Shown piece after piece: positions 15,053-63,504 of a stretch of DNA of 64,000 nucleotides. Under the pieces are notes generated by a model. It did not search any database, had not been told where the DNA came from, and worked only from the letters and a program-made list of their open reading frames with translations. The translations under genes and the position numbers were made by a program. Numbering within the stretch: the first letter of the stretch is position 1; every line of letters begins with the position of its first letter. Source of the stretch: an uncultured Clostridia bacterium (lineage in GTDB: Bacteria > Bacillota > Clostridia > UBA1381); the NCBI GenBank assembly GCA_947591315.1, contig CANQDD010000013.1, positions 1 through 64,000 of the forward strand, given 5' to 3'.

Positions 15053-15078
15053 TAAATCAGAAAAAATAAATAGCCAAT

Positions 15079-15277
15079 TACCCTGAGATTTCGCGTTTAA
15101 AAGTCTTTTTTTTACCAACACTTCTTTAAAGGGACTCATTCTCCGGATGCGGCGTATACGCCTCCTTTCCTTCGGGACTGCCAGTGGACATATAAAGTAT
15201 TCGGGATGTAACCCACCTGCATGGGCAGGTAGAAACTTGACTTGTTCGGACGGTTATTTCGGGGTTTTTATTTTTTT
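15079..15277 (+). ncRNA. ssrS: 6S RNA
   Basis: 6S RNA binds sigma-A RNA polymerase by mimicking an open promoter. The 5' part CCCTGAGAT (15081-15089) pairs with ATTTCGGGG (15256-15264) to close a long hairpin. The 5' CTGAGATTTCGC closely resembles the start of E. coli 6S RNA (CTGAGATGTTCGC). Inner pairing such as AAGTC with GACTT and the CACCTG/CAGGTA arm near the 3' end also fits the long bulged rod. A T-rich tail follows, and a promoter precedes it. No protein-coding frame fits the region. Assignment by eye; a covariance search would settle it. Confidence 0.72.
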
Positions 15278-51028: not shown

Positions 51029-51640
51029 TTATTTAAGCTCCGTAAGAGTTATATCCTCCGAGACCTGCACCTTTTCACCGTCGAACAGGTCGAAGGTATA
51101 CGTGTGGTCGTACGCCACGGTGAGGTTCTGCGATATGCGCGCCCTGCCGGACGAATTAAGGACGGTAAGCTGACCGCTTCCCTCCGCGACGTATCTCCCC
51201 GCCGGTATTTTGTCGGGGCAGGAGTAGCTCTCGTTCCCTTTAAGCGCGTACTTTTTACCTTTTTCGGTTTTAGCCGCGTCACCGGATACGCCCGATTCAC
51301 TTTTCTTAGCCTCAATATCGCGGTCGAGCTGCTCTATTTTACTTTGAAGCTCGCTGATTTCCTCGGTCAGACTGTCGTGCGTTTTCTTATATTCCATGTA
51401 ATAGCCGTTTACCGTGCCGCGCGTGCCAAGCTCCGCGTCAGCCGCGCTTATCTGCTCCTTTATCGCTTCGGAATCTGCTGTGACAGAATCGGTATCGGCG
51501 GTAATTTCGCTTATCTCCGCGTCAAGCAGCGCTTTGGCGTCCTTTTTTGCGTCCGCTCTGAACGCGGCAGTCCCGACCGCTGCGGAAGCTGCGGCTGTAA
51601 ACACGGAGAGCAGTATAATAAACAGTTTTTTTCTTGTCAT
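51029..51640 (-). CDS. Membrane-anchored coiled-coil protein, paralog of its upstream neighbour
   Basis: A 203-residue protein with an N-terminal signal-anchor (about residues 5-25), a long helical coiled coil (about 30-115, heptads of Leu/Ile/Ala) and a C-terminal beta-rich domain of about 70 residues (DKIPAGRYVAEGSGQLTV, then FDLFDGEKVQVSEDI). The C-terminal domain resembles that of the next gene upstream. It looks like the 'IpaGxYxv' sheet domain of many Firmicutes surface proteins. Function unknown. AAGGTGG precedes the ATG at 51640; it is the last gene of the OLE/dxs operon. Confidence 0.7.
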   Translation of the reverse strand: MTRKKLFIILLSVFTAAASAAVGTAAFRADAKKDAKALLDAEISEITADTDSVTADSEAIKEQISAADAELGTRGTVNGYYMEYKKTHDSLTEEISELQSKIEQLDRDIEAKKSESGVSGDAAKTEKGKKYALKGNESYSCPDKIPAGRYVAEGSGQLTVLNSSGRARISQNLTVAYDHTYTFDLFDGEKVQVSEDITLTELK

Positions 51641-51653
51641 TCGTACCACCTTG

Positions 51654-52472
51654 TCACCTCGGAATAAACTTCGCGCTGCCGTCGATTTGCACGCGGTCGT
51701 CGTCTTTAAGCTCAAACGCTTCACCGTCCGATGTAAGCAGCTTGTTAGCCGTGGATTTGCCGCCGCGCGCCACCGCTATCGAGCCGGAGCCGGTCACGGT
51801 GTAGCTTCCGGCGGTAATATCCTTGCCGACGGTGTAGTAACCGGAGGGCAGCGTCACGATCCTGCCGGACGTTTCGCCCGACGCGTCGGAAAGAGAATCG
51901 TATTCGTTTTGCTTTTGCTCTGCTTGTTTTGCGAGTTCGTCCCTCTTTTTTTCAAGCTCCGCGTTGCTCTCGCTTATTTTGTCAAGACCGCCCTGCGCGC
52001 CGCGAAATTCCTCAAGCTCTTCATTTTTTGCGCGAAGCTCCTCACCAAGCTGCCTGTTTTCCGCGAGAGCGTTGTCGTGAGCGGTTTTTGCTTCATTATA
52101 CGCGCCGCTGCTTGCACGGAGCAAATTCAGCGACCTCTCCGCCGCGCCGTCGCTTTTCGGAATGAAGAACGCCGTCATAGCCGCCGCGATTATCACCGCC
52201 GCGCTCACGGCGCAGGCTATTTTAATAAATTTCGGCGTAAGATCCGACGGCAGCGATTTTACGCGCTCCGCCGCTTTAAGCGCCGCGCCGCGTATTCTCT
52301 CCGCAGCCGAACGAAAAAAATCGGGCGCGGTACGTTTTTTGACCTCCGCGCCGCTCTCGTTTTCCGTAATTGCCGTATCGGATTTATCACTGCTGTCGGG
52401 CGTTTCGACCGCTTCGGGAGCGGTACCGTCACCGTCGGTGATTATTATGATATTGTCCTTCTCTCTCTCCAA
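51654..52472 (-). CDS. Membrane-anchored coiled-coil protein with IpaGxY-type domain
   Basis: A protein of about 272 residues: an acidic, disordered cytoplasmic part (about 1-80), one transmembrane helix (about 83-107), a coiled coil (about 115-190) and a C-terminal beta domain (YYTVGKDITAGSYTVTGSG). A TTG at 52472 has AGAGGTG at good spacing; a GTG at 52479-52481 overlaps that site, so I prefer the TTG. It begins 16 bp after ispE. The reason for its place in an isoprenoid operon is not known. Confidence 0.7.
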   Translation of the reverse strand: MEREKDNIIIITDGDGTAPEAVETPDSSDKSDTAITENESGAEVKKRTAPDFFRSAAERIRGAALKAAERVKSLPSDLTPKFIKIACAVSAAVIIAAAMTAFFIPKSDGAAERSLNLLRASSGAYNEAKTAHDNALAENRQLGEELRAKNEELEEFRGAQGGLDKISESNAELEKKRDELAKQAEQKQNEYDSLSDASGETSGRIVTLPSGYYTVGKDITAGSYTVTGSGSIAVARGGKSTANKLLTSDGEAFELKDDDRVQIDGSAKFIPR

Positions 52473-52488
52473 AAGGAACACCTCTTAT

Positions 52489-53370
52489 TCAGTTCATTAT
52501 ACTCGTTAGGTACACGTCGCGGAACTGCCTTGAAAAGCTGTCCGCGCTTCTTTTCGCCTTTGCGTAGTCGTCGAATATTCCCAGCACCGTCGGGCCGCTG
52601 CCGCTCATTACCGCGCCGAGCGCGCCGTTCATAATCATTTTTGTCTTTATGCCGCCCACAACGGGGTGGAGCTTCACCGTGACGCTTTCCATAACGTTGC
52701 ACAGCTTTGACGCGACGTCCCTGACGCTGCCCGATCTTATCGCGCATATCATGCCGTCGGTGTCGGGGCGCGTCATATTTTCCGCGCCGTCGATCTGCTC
52801 ATATATCGCCGCCGTCGAAACGCTTATCGGCGGCTTTACGAGAAGAATGTGCGTTTTTGGGGCAGGGGGGAGCGGCGTTAAAATTTCGCCTATACCCTCC
52901 GCAAGCTGTGTGCCGCCCGTGAAGCAGTACGCCACGTCCGCGCCGAGCGACGCTCCGGCGCGAATAAGCTCCTCATCGCTTAACGGACAGCCGTAGAGCA
53001 TATTGAGCGCGCAAAGCACGGCGGCGCAGTTGCCGCTGCCGCCCGCAAGTCCGGCAGCCACGGGAATATTCTTATGTATTATGATTTTCACGCCGCCGCG
53101 TATCGAGGTGAGCGAATAAAAAAGCTCCGCCGCCTTATACGCGATATTTTTGTTGTTCGTCGGCAGGTACTTAAGATTGGTTGAAACGGATATTTCACCG
53201 TCGGTTTTGTCGATTATGAGTAAATCGAACAGCGATACCGTCTGCATAATCATCTTTATATCGTGGTAGCCGTCCGCGCGCCTTGACAGAACGTCAAGCG
53301 TAAGGTTGACCTTCGCATACGACCTTGCTATGGCGCGTCTGCCTGTTATTACTATGTCGTCCGAAAGCAT
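52489..53370 (-). CDS. ispE: 4-diphosphocytidyl-2-C-methyl-D-erythritol kinase
   Basis: GHMP-family kinase of the MEP isoprenoid pathway; it phosphorylates CDP-methylerythritol. SYAKVNLTLDVLSRRADGYH and the ATP loop PVAAGLAGGSGNCAAVL are the IspE hallmarks, and GAVMSGSGPTVLGIF is the third GHMP motif. Length 293. AAAGGAGG lies 7 bp before the ATG at 53370. It shares an operon with dxs, so the first and a middle step of the pathway are made together. Confidence 0.94.
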   Translation of the reverse strand: MLSDDIVITGRRAIARSYAKVNLTLDVLSRRADGYHDIKMIMQTVSLFDLLIIDKTDGEISVSTNLKYLPTNNKNIAYKAAELFYSLTSIRGGVKIIIHKNIPVAAGLAGGSGNCAAVLCALNMLYGCPLSDEELIRAGASLGADVAYCFTGGTQLAEGIGEILTPLPPAPKTHILLVKPPISVSTAAIYEQIDGAENMTRPDTDGMICAIRSGSVRDVASKLCNVMESVTVKLHPVVGGIKTKMIMNGALGAVMSGSGPTVLGIFDDYAKAKRSADSFSRQFRDVYLTSIMN

Positions 53371-53383
53371 ATTTTAGCCTCCT

Positions 53384-54184
53384 TTACAATGCGCTGTGCG
53401 ACTCGTCCGCGACGCGGCGTATCACCTCGTCCGTTATACTATCCTCACATTCGCTTTTTTTGAGATACGCGAGGTACTCTATATTTCCCTCGGGCCCCTT
53501 GACGGGCGAAAACGACAGTCCGGCGGCGTGAAGGTCGATGCTCCGCGCGAAGTCAAGCACGTTTTTTATGACCTCGTAATGCACCTTAATGTCCCTCACA
53601 ACGCCCTTTTTGCCGACCTGTTCGCGCCCTGCCTCAAACTGCGGCTTTATCAGCGCGACAATCTCACCGTCGTCCGCAAGCAGATTTTTTGCCACCGGCA
53701 GCACAAGACGGAGCGATATAAACGAAACGTCGATCGACGCGAAATCTATCTTCTCGCCGATGTCCTCGGGCGTGACGTAGCGTATGTTTGTGCGCTCCAT
53801 GTTCACGACGCGCTCGTCTGAACGCAACTTCCACGCGAACTGACCGTACCCCACGTCGACCGCGAACACCTTTCTTGCGCCGTTTTGCAGCATACAGTCG
53901 GTAAAACCGCCCGTTGACGCGCCTATGTCCATCGTCACCCTGCCTTCGAGCGATATTGGGAACACTTTAAGAGCCTTTTCGAGCTTCAGCCCGCCTCGGC
54001 TCACGTATTTGAGTGTTTCGCCGCGAACCTCGGGCGTGACACTTTCGTCCACCTGCTGCCCTGCCTTGTCGCACTTCTGGTTGTCTATATAAACCTGTCC
54101 AGCCATTATGAGCGCCTTCGCGCGCTCGCGGCTCTGCGCCAGACCCTTGTCCACAAGGAGCGCGTCAAGCCTTACCTTAGCCAT
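53384..54184 (-). CDS. tlyA: TlyA-family rRNA 2'-O-methyltransferase (S4 + FtsJ-like)
   Basis: A 266-residue protein with an N-terminal S4 RNA-binding domain (about residues 1-60, RLDALLVDKGLAQSRERAKALI) and a FtsJ-type SAM methyltransferase domain (DIGASTGGFTDCMLQ, then IKPQFEAG). TlyA methylates 2'-hydroxyls of rRNA; some members were first described as hemolysins. Its start overlaps the dxs end by 8 bp. A tlyA gene next to dxs is a common Firmicutes arrangement. Confidence 0.93.
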   Translation of the reverse strand: MAKVRLDALLVDKGLAQSRERAKALIMAGQVYIDNQKCDKAGQQVDESVTPEVRGETLKYVSRGGLKLEKALKVFPISLEGRVTMDIGASTGGFTDCMLQNGARKVFAVDVGYGQFAWKLRSDERVVNMERTNIRYVTPEDIGEKIDFASIDVSFISLRLVLPVAKNLLADDGEIVALIKPQFEAGREQVGKKGVVRDIKVHYEVIKNVLDFARSIDLHAAGLSFSPVKGPEGNIEYLAYLKKSECEDSITDEVIRRVADESHSAL

Positions 54185-56042
54185 TATTATTTTCCTCTCG
54201 CATTGAATTATTCATGTATTCGGCTATCGAAGCCGCGTCGCAGCCGCAGTGCGCGTCAAGCTCGTCAACCGTGCCGTGCGGTATCGGACTGTCGGGAAAC
54301 GCGAATATCTTTAATTTACACTTTACGCCGCGCTCGGCGATAAGCGACGCGATCATACTGCCCATACCGCCGATTTTTACGTTGTCCTCGACCGTTATCA
54401 CATTACCCGTCTTGACAGCCGACGCGATAACAGCCTCACTGTCTAGCGGCTTTATCGTCGGCATCGCAAGTATTTCAACCGACAACTCCGCAAGCGCGGC
54501 GGCTTCCTCCGCGCGTTTTACCATTCTGCCCGTCGCTATAATCGTAACGTCCGTACCCTCTTGTATAAGCTGCGACTTGCCGAGCGTGAACGTGCACGGT
54601 ACGTTTTCAGCCTCGCATCCGCCGCGCGGATAGCGTATCGCTATCGGAGCGTTGAAGCGGTTAACCGCAAAATCGAGCATTTCCTCAAGCTGGCCGAGCG
54701 TCGCGGGCGACAGGAGCGTCATGTTAGGAACATGCGTCAGGTATGAAATATCGTAAACACCCTGATGCGTCTCGCCGTCCGCGCCGACAATGCCCGCGCG
54801 GTCAATCGGGAACACGACGTGAAGATTTTGCAGACAAACGTCGTGCAGCGTCTGATCGTACGCGCGCTGCAAAAACGACGAGTACAGCGGTATTACGGGA
54901 ATATACCCTGCCGACGCGAGACCTGCCGACAGCGTTACGCCGTGCTGCTCGGCTATGCCCACGTCGAAAAAGCGGTTTTTGTTTTTCTTCACAAATTCGT
55001 CAAGACCCGTGCCGTTCGGCATCGCGCCCGTAATTGCGACCACCTTCGGATTTTTCTCTGCTATGCGTACCATAGCCGCGCCGAAACGGTCGCTGTACGT
55101 TTCGCCCGACTTTGCCGTTTCGCCCGTGTCCTTGTCGAACGGCGATATGCCGTGGAACTTCTGCGGATTGCTTTCCGCCGGAGCGTAGCCTTTGCCCTTT
55201 TTCGTCTGAACGTGTATAAACACGGGCTTTTTCTCGCTTTTTACGTAGTCGAAACAGCTTATGAGCGCCTCTATATCGTGACCGTCAATGGGCCCCATGT
55301 ACGTGAAACCCAAATCGTCGAACATCGTTGTCGGTATTACAAGGCGGCGGAAAAACCGCTTTACCTTTTTTATGACCGTCGCTATGCCCTTGCCGACGAG
55401 CGGTATTTTGTTCAGTATCCTTTCAACGACAACCTTTGAATGAAAGTACGCCGGCGACATACGCAGCTTTCTAAGGTGCGTCGATACCGCGCCGACGTTT
55501 CGGGCTATGGACATGGCGTTGTCGTTTAATATGAGAATCAACGGCGTGCGTGAGTGACCGGCGTCGTTCATCGCCTCGTACATCATTCCGCCCGTGAGAG
55601 CGCCGTCGCCGAACACGGCGATTACGTTGTAATCGTCGCCGTCAAGGTCGCGCGCCCGCGCTATGCCGAGCGCCGCGCTTATCGAGGTGGAGCTGTGACC
55701 GGTATTAAACGCGTCGCAGCCGCTTTCCGCGCGCTTCGGGAAACCCGACAGACCGCCGAATTGACGGAGCGTGTCGAACCTGTCTTTCCTGCCCGTTAAA
55801 ATTTTGTGGACGTACGACTGATGCCCCACGTCGAACACTATTTTATCCTTCGGAACGTCAAAAACAGTGTGAAGCGCGACGGTAAGCTCCACAACGCCGA
55901 GGTTCGACGCGAGGTGGCCGCCCGTTTTTGACACACTGTCAACAAGAAACTCCCGAATTTCGGCGCACAGCGCGTTAAGCTCGGGAATTGTAAGCTCTTT
56001 TAAGTTTTCCAGCGATTGAATTTTGTCTAATAACTTGTCCAT
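54177..56042 (-). CDS. dxs: 1-deoxy-D-xylulose-5-phosphate synthase
   Basis: Thiamine-diphosphate enzyme making DXP from pyruvate and glyceraldehyde 3-phosphate, the entry to the MEP isoprenoid pathway. HLASNLGVVELTVALH, the TPP motif GDGALTGGMMYEAMND, VHVQTKKGKGYAPAE and IDRAGIVGADGETHQG identify Dxs. Length 621. It lies directly after the OapA-like gene, with 3 bp between them, so it is expressed from the OLE promoter or a promoter inside that region. Confidence 0.97.
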   Translation of the reverse strand: MDKLLDKIQSLENLKELTIPELNALCAEIREFLVDSVSKTGGHLASNLGVVELTVALHTVFDVPKDKIVFDVGHQSYVHKILTGRKDRFDTLRQFGGLSGFPKRAESGCDAFNTGHSSTSISAALGIARARDLDGDDYNVIAVFGDGALTGGMMYEAMNDAGHSRTPLILILNDNAMSIARNVGAVSTHLRKLRMSPAYFHSKVVVERILNKIPLVGKGIATVIKKVKRFFRRLVIPTTMFDDLGFTYMGPIDGHDIEALISCFDYVKSEKKPVFIHVQTKKGKGYAPAESNPQKFHGISPFDKDTGETAKSGETYSDRFGAAMVRIAEKNPKVVAITGAMPNGTGLDEFVKKNKNRFFDVGIAEQHGVTLSAGLASAGYIPVIPLYSSFLQRAYDQTLHDVCLQNLHVVFPIDRAGIVGADGETHQGVYDISYLTHVPNMTLLSPATLGQLEEMLDFAVNRFNAPIAIRYPRGGCEAENVPCTFTLGKSQLIQEGTDVTIIATGRMVKRAEEAAALAELSVEILAMPTIKPLDSEAVIASAVKTGNVITVEDNVKIGGMGSMIASLIAERGVKCKLKIFAFPDSPIPHGTVDELDAHCGCDAASIAEYMNNSMREENNNG

Positions 56043-56045
56043 AGC

Positions 56046-56636
56046 TTATTTTCTGAGGAAATGCCTGCAAAAGTACATTATTTTCCCGACGGCGAACACT
56101 ATCGAGTTGCCGTTTTGCATGGAAATGCCCTTTGACATGGCTTTTCCGCCTATCGTGAGAGCGCCGACTATACCGGTAAGGATAAGGCTCGGAAGTATTC
56201 CCGTGAGCTTAAACACGCTTATAAGCTCGCTTACTATAAGCGTTGTCGTCGCGCCGGAGATAATACCCGCGATGTCGCCTATTACGTCGCAGCACATATT
56301 CGCGAGCTGCGGCGCGTGGCGTATTACCGAAATGCTTTCCTTCGCGCCCTTGACCTTCCTTGCCGCGAGCGAGTGAAACGGGTGTTCCTCGGCGTTTTGC
56401 ACCGCCGTGCCTATCATGTCGAAGAAAATGTTTACCGCGATTATTACAAACAGCAGCACAAAAGCGAAAAACAGCGTCAGCGACTGCATGAGCACGGACG
56501 TTATGAAGCTGAAGAACACCGAAAGCACGAATGACAGTATGAGAACCGTCACCGTCCATTTATGCGACACAGCCACGTTTATTTTCGGCTGCGGCACGGT
56601 GTATTTTTTCCGTTTCGGTATGTCGGACTTGTCCAA
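56046..56636 (-). CDS. oapA: OapA-like OLE RNA-associated membrane protein
   Basis: A 196-residue membrane protein with a basic N-terminus and four hydrophobic segments (about residues 28-50, 52-75, 125-150 and 150-172). The middle part FFDMIGTAVQNAEEHPFH, RKVKGAKESISVI and NMCCDVIGDIAGIISGA resembles the DUF21/CNNM magnesium-transporter fold reported for OapA. It lies between the putative OLE RNA and dxs, exactly the place of oapA in known OLE loci. The start is TTG at 56636, with GGAGAG upstream. I assign the name from family resemblance plus context. Confidence 0.8.
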   Translation of the reverse strand: MDKSDIPKRKKYTVPQPKINVAVSHKWTVTVLILSFVLSVFFSFITSVLMQSLTLFFAFVLLFVIIAVNIFFDMIGTAVQNAEEHPFHSLAARKVKGAKESISVIRHAPQLANMCCDVIGDIAGIISGATTTLIVSELISVFKLTGILPSLILTGIVGALTIGGKAMSKGISMQNGNSIVFAVGKIMYFCRHFLRK

Positions 56637-56661
56637 TTTGTTTTCTCTCCTTTATATTAAA

Positions 56662-56676
56662 GCCGCACCCTGCGGC
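56662..56676 (-). promoter_or_regulatory. Hairpin between OLE RNA and oapA
   Basis: GCCGCA-CCC-TGCGGC, followed on the minus strand by TTTAATAT. It could mark the OLE RNA 3' end by processing or partial termination before the oapA ribosome binding site. Confidence 0.45.
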
Positions 56677-56699
56677 ATCGGTAACATAATAAAAATAGG

Positions 56700-57338
56700 G
56701 TAGTGAACGGAGTAAAGTTTGCGGCTTAGGTCCGGCAGGTTTTCCCGTCGGTCAACTCCCTCGTCGCCGAGGGAGCGGTTTCCCATTAAAGACCGGCACC
56801 TATACGCCTTTCGGCGTACCGAGTAGCCGGATCGCCACTGAGTCCGCACTGCAATCCTCCGCTCACCCTTTTACGACAGCCTAGAGGTTTTCCCATACAG
56901 CCGAAGCCTTCCGTATCCTCTTTTGCAGAGCATGGTTTCAGCGCGCGATTCCCCTTGTGCCCGATGGCGCCAAAGTAGGCGAAAGGTTCTGTTCGCGCAT
57001 CCGCCACATCCACTCAAGGCTGGCTACGCTGCCCACAGCCCTCGCGCGGTCTCCTTATGGGAGATACGCGCTACTGACCGCAAAACAGGTTTTCCCCTGA
57101 GCCGTAACAGCTTACTCCCTTAGGGGGAATGGGCTGCCACAGTCACAGGCCTCCACGGAAAAGGGGGAAGGGCTGCTATGCCGTTAGCAACCGCCCCTAA
57201 ACCTTAACTCCCAGCATCAGCCCCGAACTGGGCGTTCAAAGCAAAACACCAGAAACTTCATCGATGTGCCATTTGGCGGATTTTTAGGCCCGCTTTCCGA
57301 AAAGCCGTACTGACTAGGATACTGCACCGCTATTACAA
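56700..57338 (-). ncRNA. OLE RNA (ornate large extremophilic RNA)
   Basis: A transcript of about 640 nt on the minus strand, with no plausible protein frame, full of short complementary segments, runs from a good promoter to just before oapA. Examples (minus-strand sequence) are GGCTTTTCGGAAAGC near the 5' end, GGTACGCCGAAAGGCGTATAG and CCCTCGGCGACGAGGG. Its size, the following OapA-like gene and the dxs/tlyA/ispE genes fit OLE RNA, which forms a membrane ribonucleoprotein with OapA and affects tolerance to alcohols, cold and magnesium in alkaliphilic bacilli. RNase P RNA and tmRNA signatures are absent. The family call is by context and size, not by alignment. Confidence 0.78.
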
Positions 57339-57344
57339 TTTATT

Positions 57345-57373
57345 ATCTTATCATACTTAAAGCAAAAAGTCAA
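57345..57373 (-). promoter_or_regulatory. Promoter of the OLE RNA-oapA-dxs operon
   Basis: On the minus strand TTGACT (57368-57373), 17 bp, TAAGAT (57345-57350), with the transcript predicted to begin near 57338. Confidence 0.8.
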
Positions 57374-57484: not shown

Positions 57485-58552
<1,068 letters not shown>

Positions 58553-63356: not shown

Positions 63357-63373
63357 ATACCCACAATCGAACA

Positions 63374-63482
63374 TCAGAGTAGGCGTATGCGCGTAAAGTG
63401 CGGAACGAACGGGGAGTTGTCGTTCCGACGAAAAGCCCGTCCGCGTGAGCGGCGGCTTGCGGTGCGTATGCCGCATCCCGCT
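63374..63482 (+). promoter_or_regulatory. Tetrahydrofolate riboswitch
   Basis: A leader of about 109 nt with the THF-I aptamer landmarks: AGAGTAG at the start, GCGTAAAGTG, a GGAACGA...TCGTTCC hairpin, GACGAAAAGC, and GCGGTGC with GCATCCCGCT at the end. It pairs GCGTATGC near its start with GCGTATGC-like sequence near its end. A folate transporter gene follows, the usual target. The 3' end runs into a terminator hairpin, suggesting control of transcription by folate level. Confidence 0.82.
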
Positions 63483-63504
63483 GAAAAAACAGGACATCTC
63501 TTTT

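Follow-up and report, generated by a model that had tools for sequence, protein, structure and literature searches.

Full-length OLE RNA beside the partner gene oapA in an uncultured Clostridia bacterium, with a comparison of its promoter and P9.3 loop among relatives

The window analysed here, 64,000 nucleotides from the genome of an uncultured Clostridia bacterium (GenBank assembly GCA_947591315.1, contig CANQDD010000013.1, positions 1 to 64,000), carries on its minus strand a full-length gene for the OLE RNA followed by oapA, the gene of its protein partner. OLE, a well-studied RNA, ranks to our knowledge among the largest structured RNAs of bacteria for which no biochemical function is known. 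The Rfam covariance model RF01071, with a gathering score of 50 bits, was matched from its first to its last position (model 1-616) over 57346-56681, a span of 666 bases. This is a true, well-preserved and ordinary OLE-OapA locus. An earlier sequence-only reading had named the RNA OLE and given its length as about 640 nt; the length is close and the identity holds, with the Rfam search returning a strong OLE match rather than none or one to another large RNA family. We are highly confident of the full-length gene and its partner together with a scheme in which a longer transcript would be processed to give a dimeric ribonucleoprotein (RNP) at the membrane. Comparison of sequences supplies the identity of the RNA, the conservation of its promoter, the partner genes, the likely fold of OapA, an anticorrelation with MpfA and a set of loop palindromes. 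The features of the locus are as follows.

57345..57373, minus strand: sigma-A-type promoter with an extended -10 (TTGACT-17-TAAGAT, the -10 element preceded by TG), from sequence scan and family conservation
56681..57346, minus strand: OLE RNA, full length (RF01071, 416.9 bits, E 4.8e-119)
56959..56981, minus strand: apical part of P9.3 with the palindrome GGCGCC at 56971-56966, a proposed homodimer kissing loop, placed by homology with locus L010
56662..56676, minus strand: small hairpin between OLE and oapA, GCCGCA-GGG-TGCGGC then TTTAAT, of putative role and kept only in close relatives
56046..56636, minus strand: oapA, 196 amino acids, TTG start, CNNM-like membrane protein, from its open reading frame (ORF), Pfam and structural comparison

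Promoter and transcript of the OLE locus

The promoter scores 9/12 in the window, which by itself lies within chance (shuffle p 0.145). Its support comes from the relatives: in each of the 26 family loci that could be tested, for which 70 bases upstream were available, a promoter scores at least 9/12 with a spacer of 17 and TG before the -10 element, where shuffles expect 0.12, and after dereplication at 80% the strong form is found in 21/21 loci against 0.10 expected. In the family loci the -10 element ends 12-19 bases ahead of the GGTGCAG motif. Outside the family the arrangement is looser, with the strong form in 9/17 other loci of the order and 9/30 of the class. The longest upstream frame is the divergent prfA in L001, L010, L019, L021, L023 and L024, another divergent frame in L006, L011, L013, L016 and L020 (its start resembles that of the window frame 63232-62351, which we take to be proB), while in L003, L008 and L014 it is a long frame on the same strand; because these frames differ among loci, the promoter is assigned to OLE and not to a neighbouring gene. 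As judged from the compared sequences, a dedicated OLE promoter is conserved in one bacterial family, which bears out the minus-strand promoter of the earlier reading. The contrast which that reading drew with Bacillus, where the RNA would sit inside a longer operon, does not stand, as Lyon 2022 (PMC9723947) reportedly places ole of Bacillus (Halalkalibacterium) halodurans within an operon and also gives it a promoter of its own. An OLE promoter of its own is thus already known from that source, and its conservation is what is added here. The window shares with the H. halodurans locus the full-length match, oapA directly downstream, homologues of OapB and OapC in the genome and an own promoter; it differs in that prfA beside OLE is divergent, which leaves OLE without an operon gene of its own strand immediately upstream, in that its dedicated extended -10 promoter is deduced from conservation among relatives, and in having GGCGCC in L9.3, as placed by homology.

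OLE, oapA, dxs, tlyA and ispE follow one another on the minus strand, in agreement with the isoprenoid genes that had been expected downstream. The OapA-like protein of the earlier reading is OapA, a homologue being encoded after OLE in 71 of the 74 related loci, and dxs falls inside the fetched flank in 60/74, making OLE-oapA-dxs the usual order. The neighbouring genes are as follows.

54177..56042, minus strand: dxs, 1-deoxy-D-xylulose-5-phosphate synthase (TIGR00204, 755 bits)
53384..54184, minus strand: tlyA family rRNA 2'-O-methyltransferase (TIGR00478, 285.8 bits)
52489..53370, minus strand: ispE (TIGR00154, 229.1 bits)
57485..58552, plus strand: prfA, divergent upstream neighbour, outside the OLE transcript (NF001859, 558.1 bits)

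The gap between OLE and oapA measures 44 bases and contains a hairpin of 6 bp followed by a poor T-run; terminator-like sites in the region number 2, against 2.3 expected in shuffles. This gap was compared across 26 loci, for some of which the oapA start is an estimate; nine were re-examined, and L022 and L025 had no usable gap. The hairpin is kept in the close relatives L019, L021 and L023 and, read by eye, has one broken pair in L024. A stable hairpin is missing from the gap in L004, L010 and L017 (-2.1, -0.4 and -0.2 kcal/mol, respectively), each with the oapA start present; L026 has weak structure (-0.5), and L003, L016 and L018 have other, unrelated hairpins. A conserved attenuator or terminator between the two genes was rejected on the basis of L004, L010 and L017. 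In a simple scan of the minus strand, no promoter-like site came up from the end of OLE to oapA.

These observations bear on how the two genes are expressed. The earlier reading had the hairpin separate OLE from oapA so that the RNA ends there and its level is set independently; the hairpin does exist, at 56676-56662, and OLE has its own promoter, yet the hairpin does not serve as a separating device that relatives share, and an independently set level is unsupported because the hairpin is not conserved. With so short a gap, no promoter-like site before oapA and an H. halodurans gene reported within a polycistronic RNA and, in PMC11332333, as processed at its 3' end, two separately controlled units are improbable. 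Less probable by a good margin is an OLE that, instead of standing free, acts chiefly as a 5' leader and regulates oapA and dxs in cis through the hairpin as attenuator: OLE does come first in the transcript with oapA-dxs immediately after, and the hairpin does precede oapA, but the stem is unstable or broken in the relatives just named, the window has a short T-run when read by eye, and one locus, L051 of genome G086, has OLE without an adjoining oapA, the sole oapA match of that genome lying on a different contig. The literature also portrays OLE as a trans-acting RNP. A single OLE-oapA transcript with processing is therefore the likelier arrangement and is favoured over independent control.

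Three further features were noted in the window. Past ispE, at 51029-52481 on the minus strand, are two adjacent ORFs (231 and 275 amino acids) that match nothing in Pfam at E 0.001, and Rfam matches on the plus strand mark a tetrahydrofolate (THF) riboswitch at 63373-63485 (86 bits) and a 6S RNA at 15077-15269 (66.8 bits).

Distribution of OLE, OapA and the partner proteins

One OLE copy was matched in the genome of the window (G000), whose assembly is 85% complete. OLE is present in 15 of the 16 genomes of its genus and 29 of the 70 family genomes searched, in 48/95 at the level of the order and in 164/393 at that of the class, where the sample was drawn at a completeness limit of 90%; the family, order and class sets overlap. 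Partial matches at or near contig ends were found in G005, G009 and G058, and further partial matches in G076, G082, G342, G397 and G401. A degenerate or non-functional copy in a lineage that is losing OLE is extremely improbable: the score of 416.9 bits lies below that of many class members (up to 560.2) and 41/70 family genomes have no OLE, but the model is matched from end to end, the oapA frame is intact, the promoter is conserved and nearly the whole genus retains the RNA. OLE variants 1 and 2, which according to PMC11332333 belong to TANB77 and RF39, likewise have uncultured gut hosts; the end-to-end match to RF01071 rules them out here, and the genome encodes homologues of OapB and OapC, which that source describes as mostly missing from the two variant clades. 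Relatives that carry a name and lie nearest are labelled Clostridia, Oscillospiraceae, Lachnospiraceae or Bacillota, and include one labelled Goat_Duodenum and several labelled Lapin, taken as rabbit. The host is probably gut-dwelling, so of the earlier label "gut-type Clostridium" the first part is supported and the genus is not.

A blastn search for OLE in phages gave no match. Among 72,556 records of a plasmid collection, the sole match to the window OapA (tblastn) or OLE (blastn) was L100:7139-7803 (NZ_AP023421.1) of Pusillibacter faecalis, where OLE (399.8 bits) is accompanied by oapA, dxs and tlyA. This 504-kb replicon, deposited as a plasmid and typed as conjugative, may be a second chromosome, since it also carries recN and tyrS.

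The fold of OapA likely resembles the CNNM/CorC membrane domain. The Pfam CNNM family matches the protein with E 4.2e-6, narrowly below the cut-off, and reaches 28.6 bits, above the cut-off, in the genome search; CNNM structures head the structural comparison of the predicted fold, with weak Foldseek E-values. A profile of 34 sequences found no relatives of OapA in the PDB at E up to 1, and a single-sequence search gave one weak match (E 0.5). OapA of the window is 35-87% identical to that of 33 other loci. It resembles the CNNM membrane domain of the MpfA/CorC magnesium transporters and differs from these proteins in its length of 196 amino acids; Pfam reports neither a CBS nor a CorC domain in it. 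The OapB homologue matches the solved OapB structure 7k9b (E 2.7e-14, residues 5-86 of 87), and its gene lies between what are presumably map and infA; neither OapA nor OapB has a match in NCBIfam. The OapC (YbxF) homologue is L7Ae-like (4lck, E 7.6e-12), falls below the NCBIfam equivalog cut-offs, and is encoded next to a gene that we take to be rpsL.

PMC11332333 describes MpfA as rare where OLE occurs. No MpfA-size CNNM protein was found in the window's genome, where the oapA locus is the sole CNNM match, an absence made uncertain by the incomplete assembly. With MpfA called from a CNNM match and frame length alone, the CBS and CorC domains lying outside the call, such proteins occur in 5 of the 29 OLE-bearing family genomes (G016, G020, G056, G068 and G069) and in 38 of the 41 OLE-free ones (all except G003, G021 and G038), giving a Fisher p of 7e-11 that ignores relatedness and draws on many incomplete genomes. 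The same split is seen inside genus g10, whose single OLE-bearing genome is without MpfA while both OLE-free genomes have it. Exclusion of MpfA by OLE is a tendency and not a rule, and the published pattern is replicated inside one family.

The P9.3 loop and the proposed particle

According to PMC12286853, the cryo-EM structure of the OLE dimer of Clostridium acetobutylicum, whose RNA belongs to the same family as that of the window and has a P9.3 hairpin, contains a self-complementary kissing loop at L9.3, and the L9.3 tetranucleotide switches from GGCC to GAUC or AGCU. For comparison, 158 loci were used (78, namely L001-L030, L046-L092 and L100, plus 80 from the class matches, with others, including low-scoring ones, left aside). 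The P9 segment was obtained from 154, all but L030, L124, L166 and L170; six segments were too short for P9.3, two had no hairpin (L020 and L111) and 146 were scored. Loops were picked, blind to palindromes, by a fold that leaves six bases unpaired in the middle third. A palindrome of at least four bases is present in 137/146 scored loops, against 61.2 expected from shuffles, with that of L150 and L176 lying away from the expected place. The nine loops without one comprise all five from the window clade, two (L132 and L133) that have GGCGCC next to the picked loop, and another two (L055 and L173) that have GGCC nearby. The core counts are GGCC 126, GCGC 13, GTAC 5, GATC 2, AGCT 2 and none 6, the cores of 13 rows, including 8 of the 13 GCGC rows, having been assigned by inspection. 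As a side observation, the P9.3 hairpin and the L9.3 contact are missing in L131, L146, L151, L164, L167 and L182 (P9 region of 35-43 bases), the first three of which share one family, f37.

On a tree built from the remaining RNA, parsimony requires a minimum of 17 core changes, with losses of P9.3 counted, where shuffled labels require 27.6 on average. A telling case among nearest pairs is L012 (GGCC), which has L011 and L013 (GCGC) at a distance of 0.07-0.08. Each of eleven chosen representatives with a fold-chosen core other than GGCC has a palindrome of six, with an individual shuffle p of 0.076-0.277. A single change may account for L016/L017, and likewise for L157/L181, so that the eleven represent nine to eleven lineages, and they were defined by a palindromic core, hence four lineages without one were also counted as failures. 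The recount of 11/15 gives a binomial p of 7e-7 (chance 0.15) or 3e-4 (chance 0.28), and that of 9/13 gives 2e-5 or 2e-3 at the same chances. GCGC and GUAC would count as two further L9.3 palindromes beyond the reported GGCC, GAUC and AGCU; GCGC did not turn up in the main text of PMC12286853, a search that had GUAC, the supplement and Wang et al. 2025 outside its scope.

Because lineages swap the palindromes GGCC, GCGC, GUAC, GAUC and AGCU, the homodimer is proposed as the functional form, and the comparative loop data support a selected OLE homodimer in general. For the OLE of the window itself a homodimer loop is only suggestive. All five members of its clade carry GGCGCC where L010 has TGGCCA, which makes the core GCGC by homology, one outside the three named in that main text. 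Against it weigh the predicted energy of the open loop, 1.7-3.1 kcal/mol above the optimum in this clade, and the unconstrained fold, which puts part of GGCGCC in another hairpin. We lean, with some reserve, toward L9.3 as a self-recognition code under compensatory selection, whereby the homodimer would be functional in gut Clostridia, RNAs of different codes would pair through L9.3 only with their own kind, and the window clade would have passed from GGCC to GGCGCC.

The proposed scheme takes transcription, processing, membrane location, dimer, protein binding and stress role from the literature or by inference. RNA polymerase with the housekeeping sigma factor would initiate at the extended -10 promoter, and OLE would form the first part of an OLE-oapA-dxs-tlyA-ispE transcript, from which 3' processing may free or stabilize an RNA of about 650 nt. 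The folded RNA would pair with another OLE molecule by way of conserved loops, the palindromic one of P9.3 among them; OapA would keep it at the membrane, and OapB and OapC would also be bound to it. The analogy with H. halodurans suggests that the particle may serve in stress and Mg2+ homeostasis, and OapA would tend to replace MpfA in this lineage.

Taken alone, this locus changes little, and the gain is comparative: a dedicated promoter conserved in one family, a tendency of OLE and MpfA to exclude each other within that family, and two more dimer-loop palindromes, with which the in vivo relevance of the OLE dimer becomes testable. The promoter of its own and the self-pairing loop that is swapped between lineages add to the comparative picture of how RNAs of this kind are produced and pair up.
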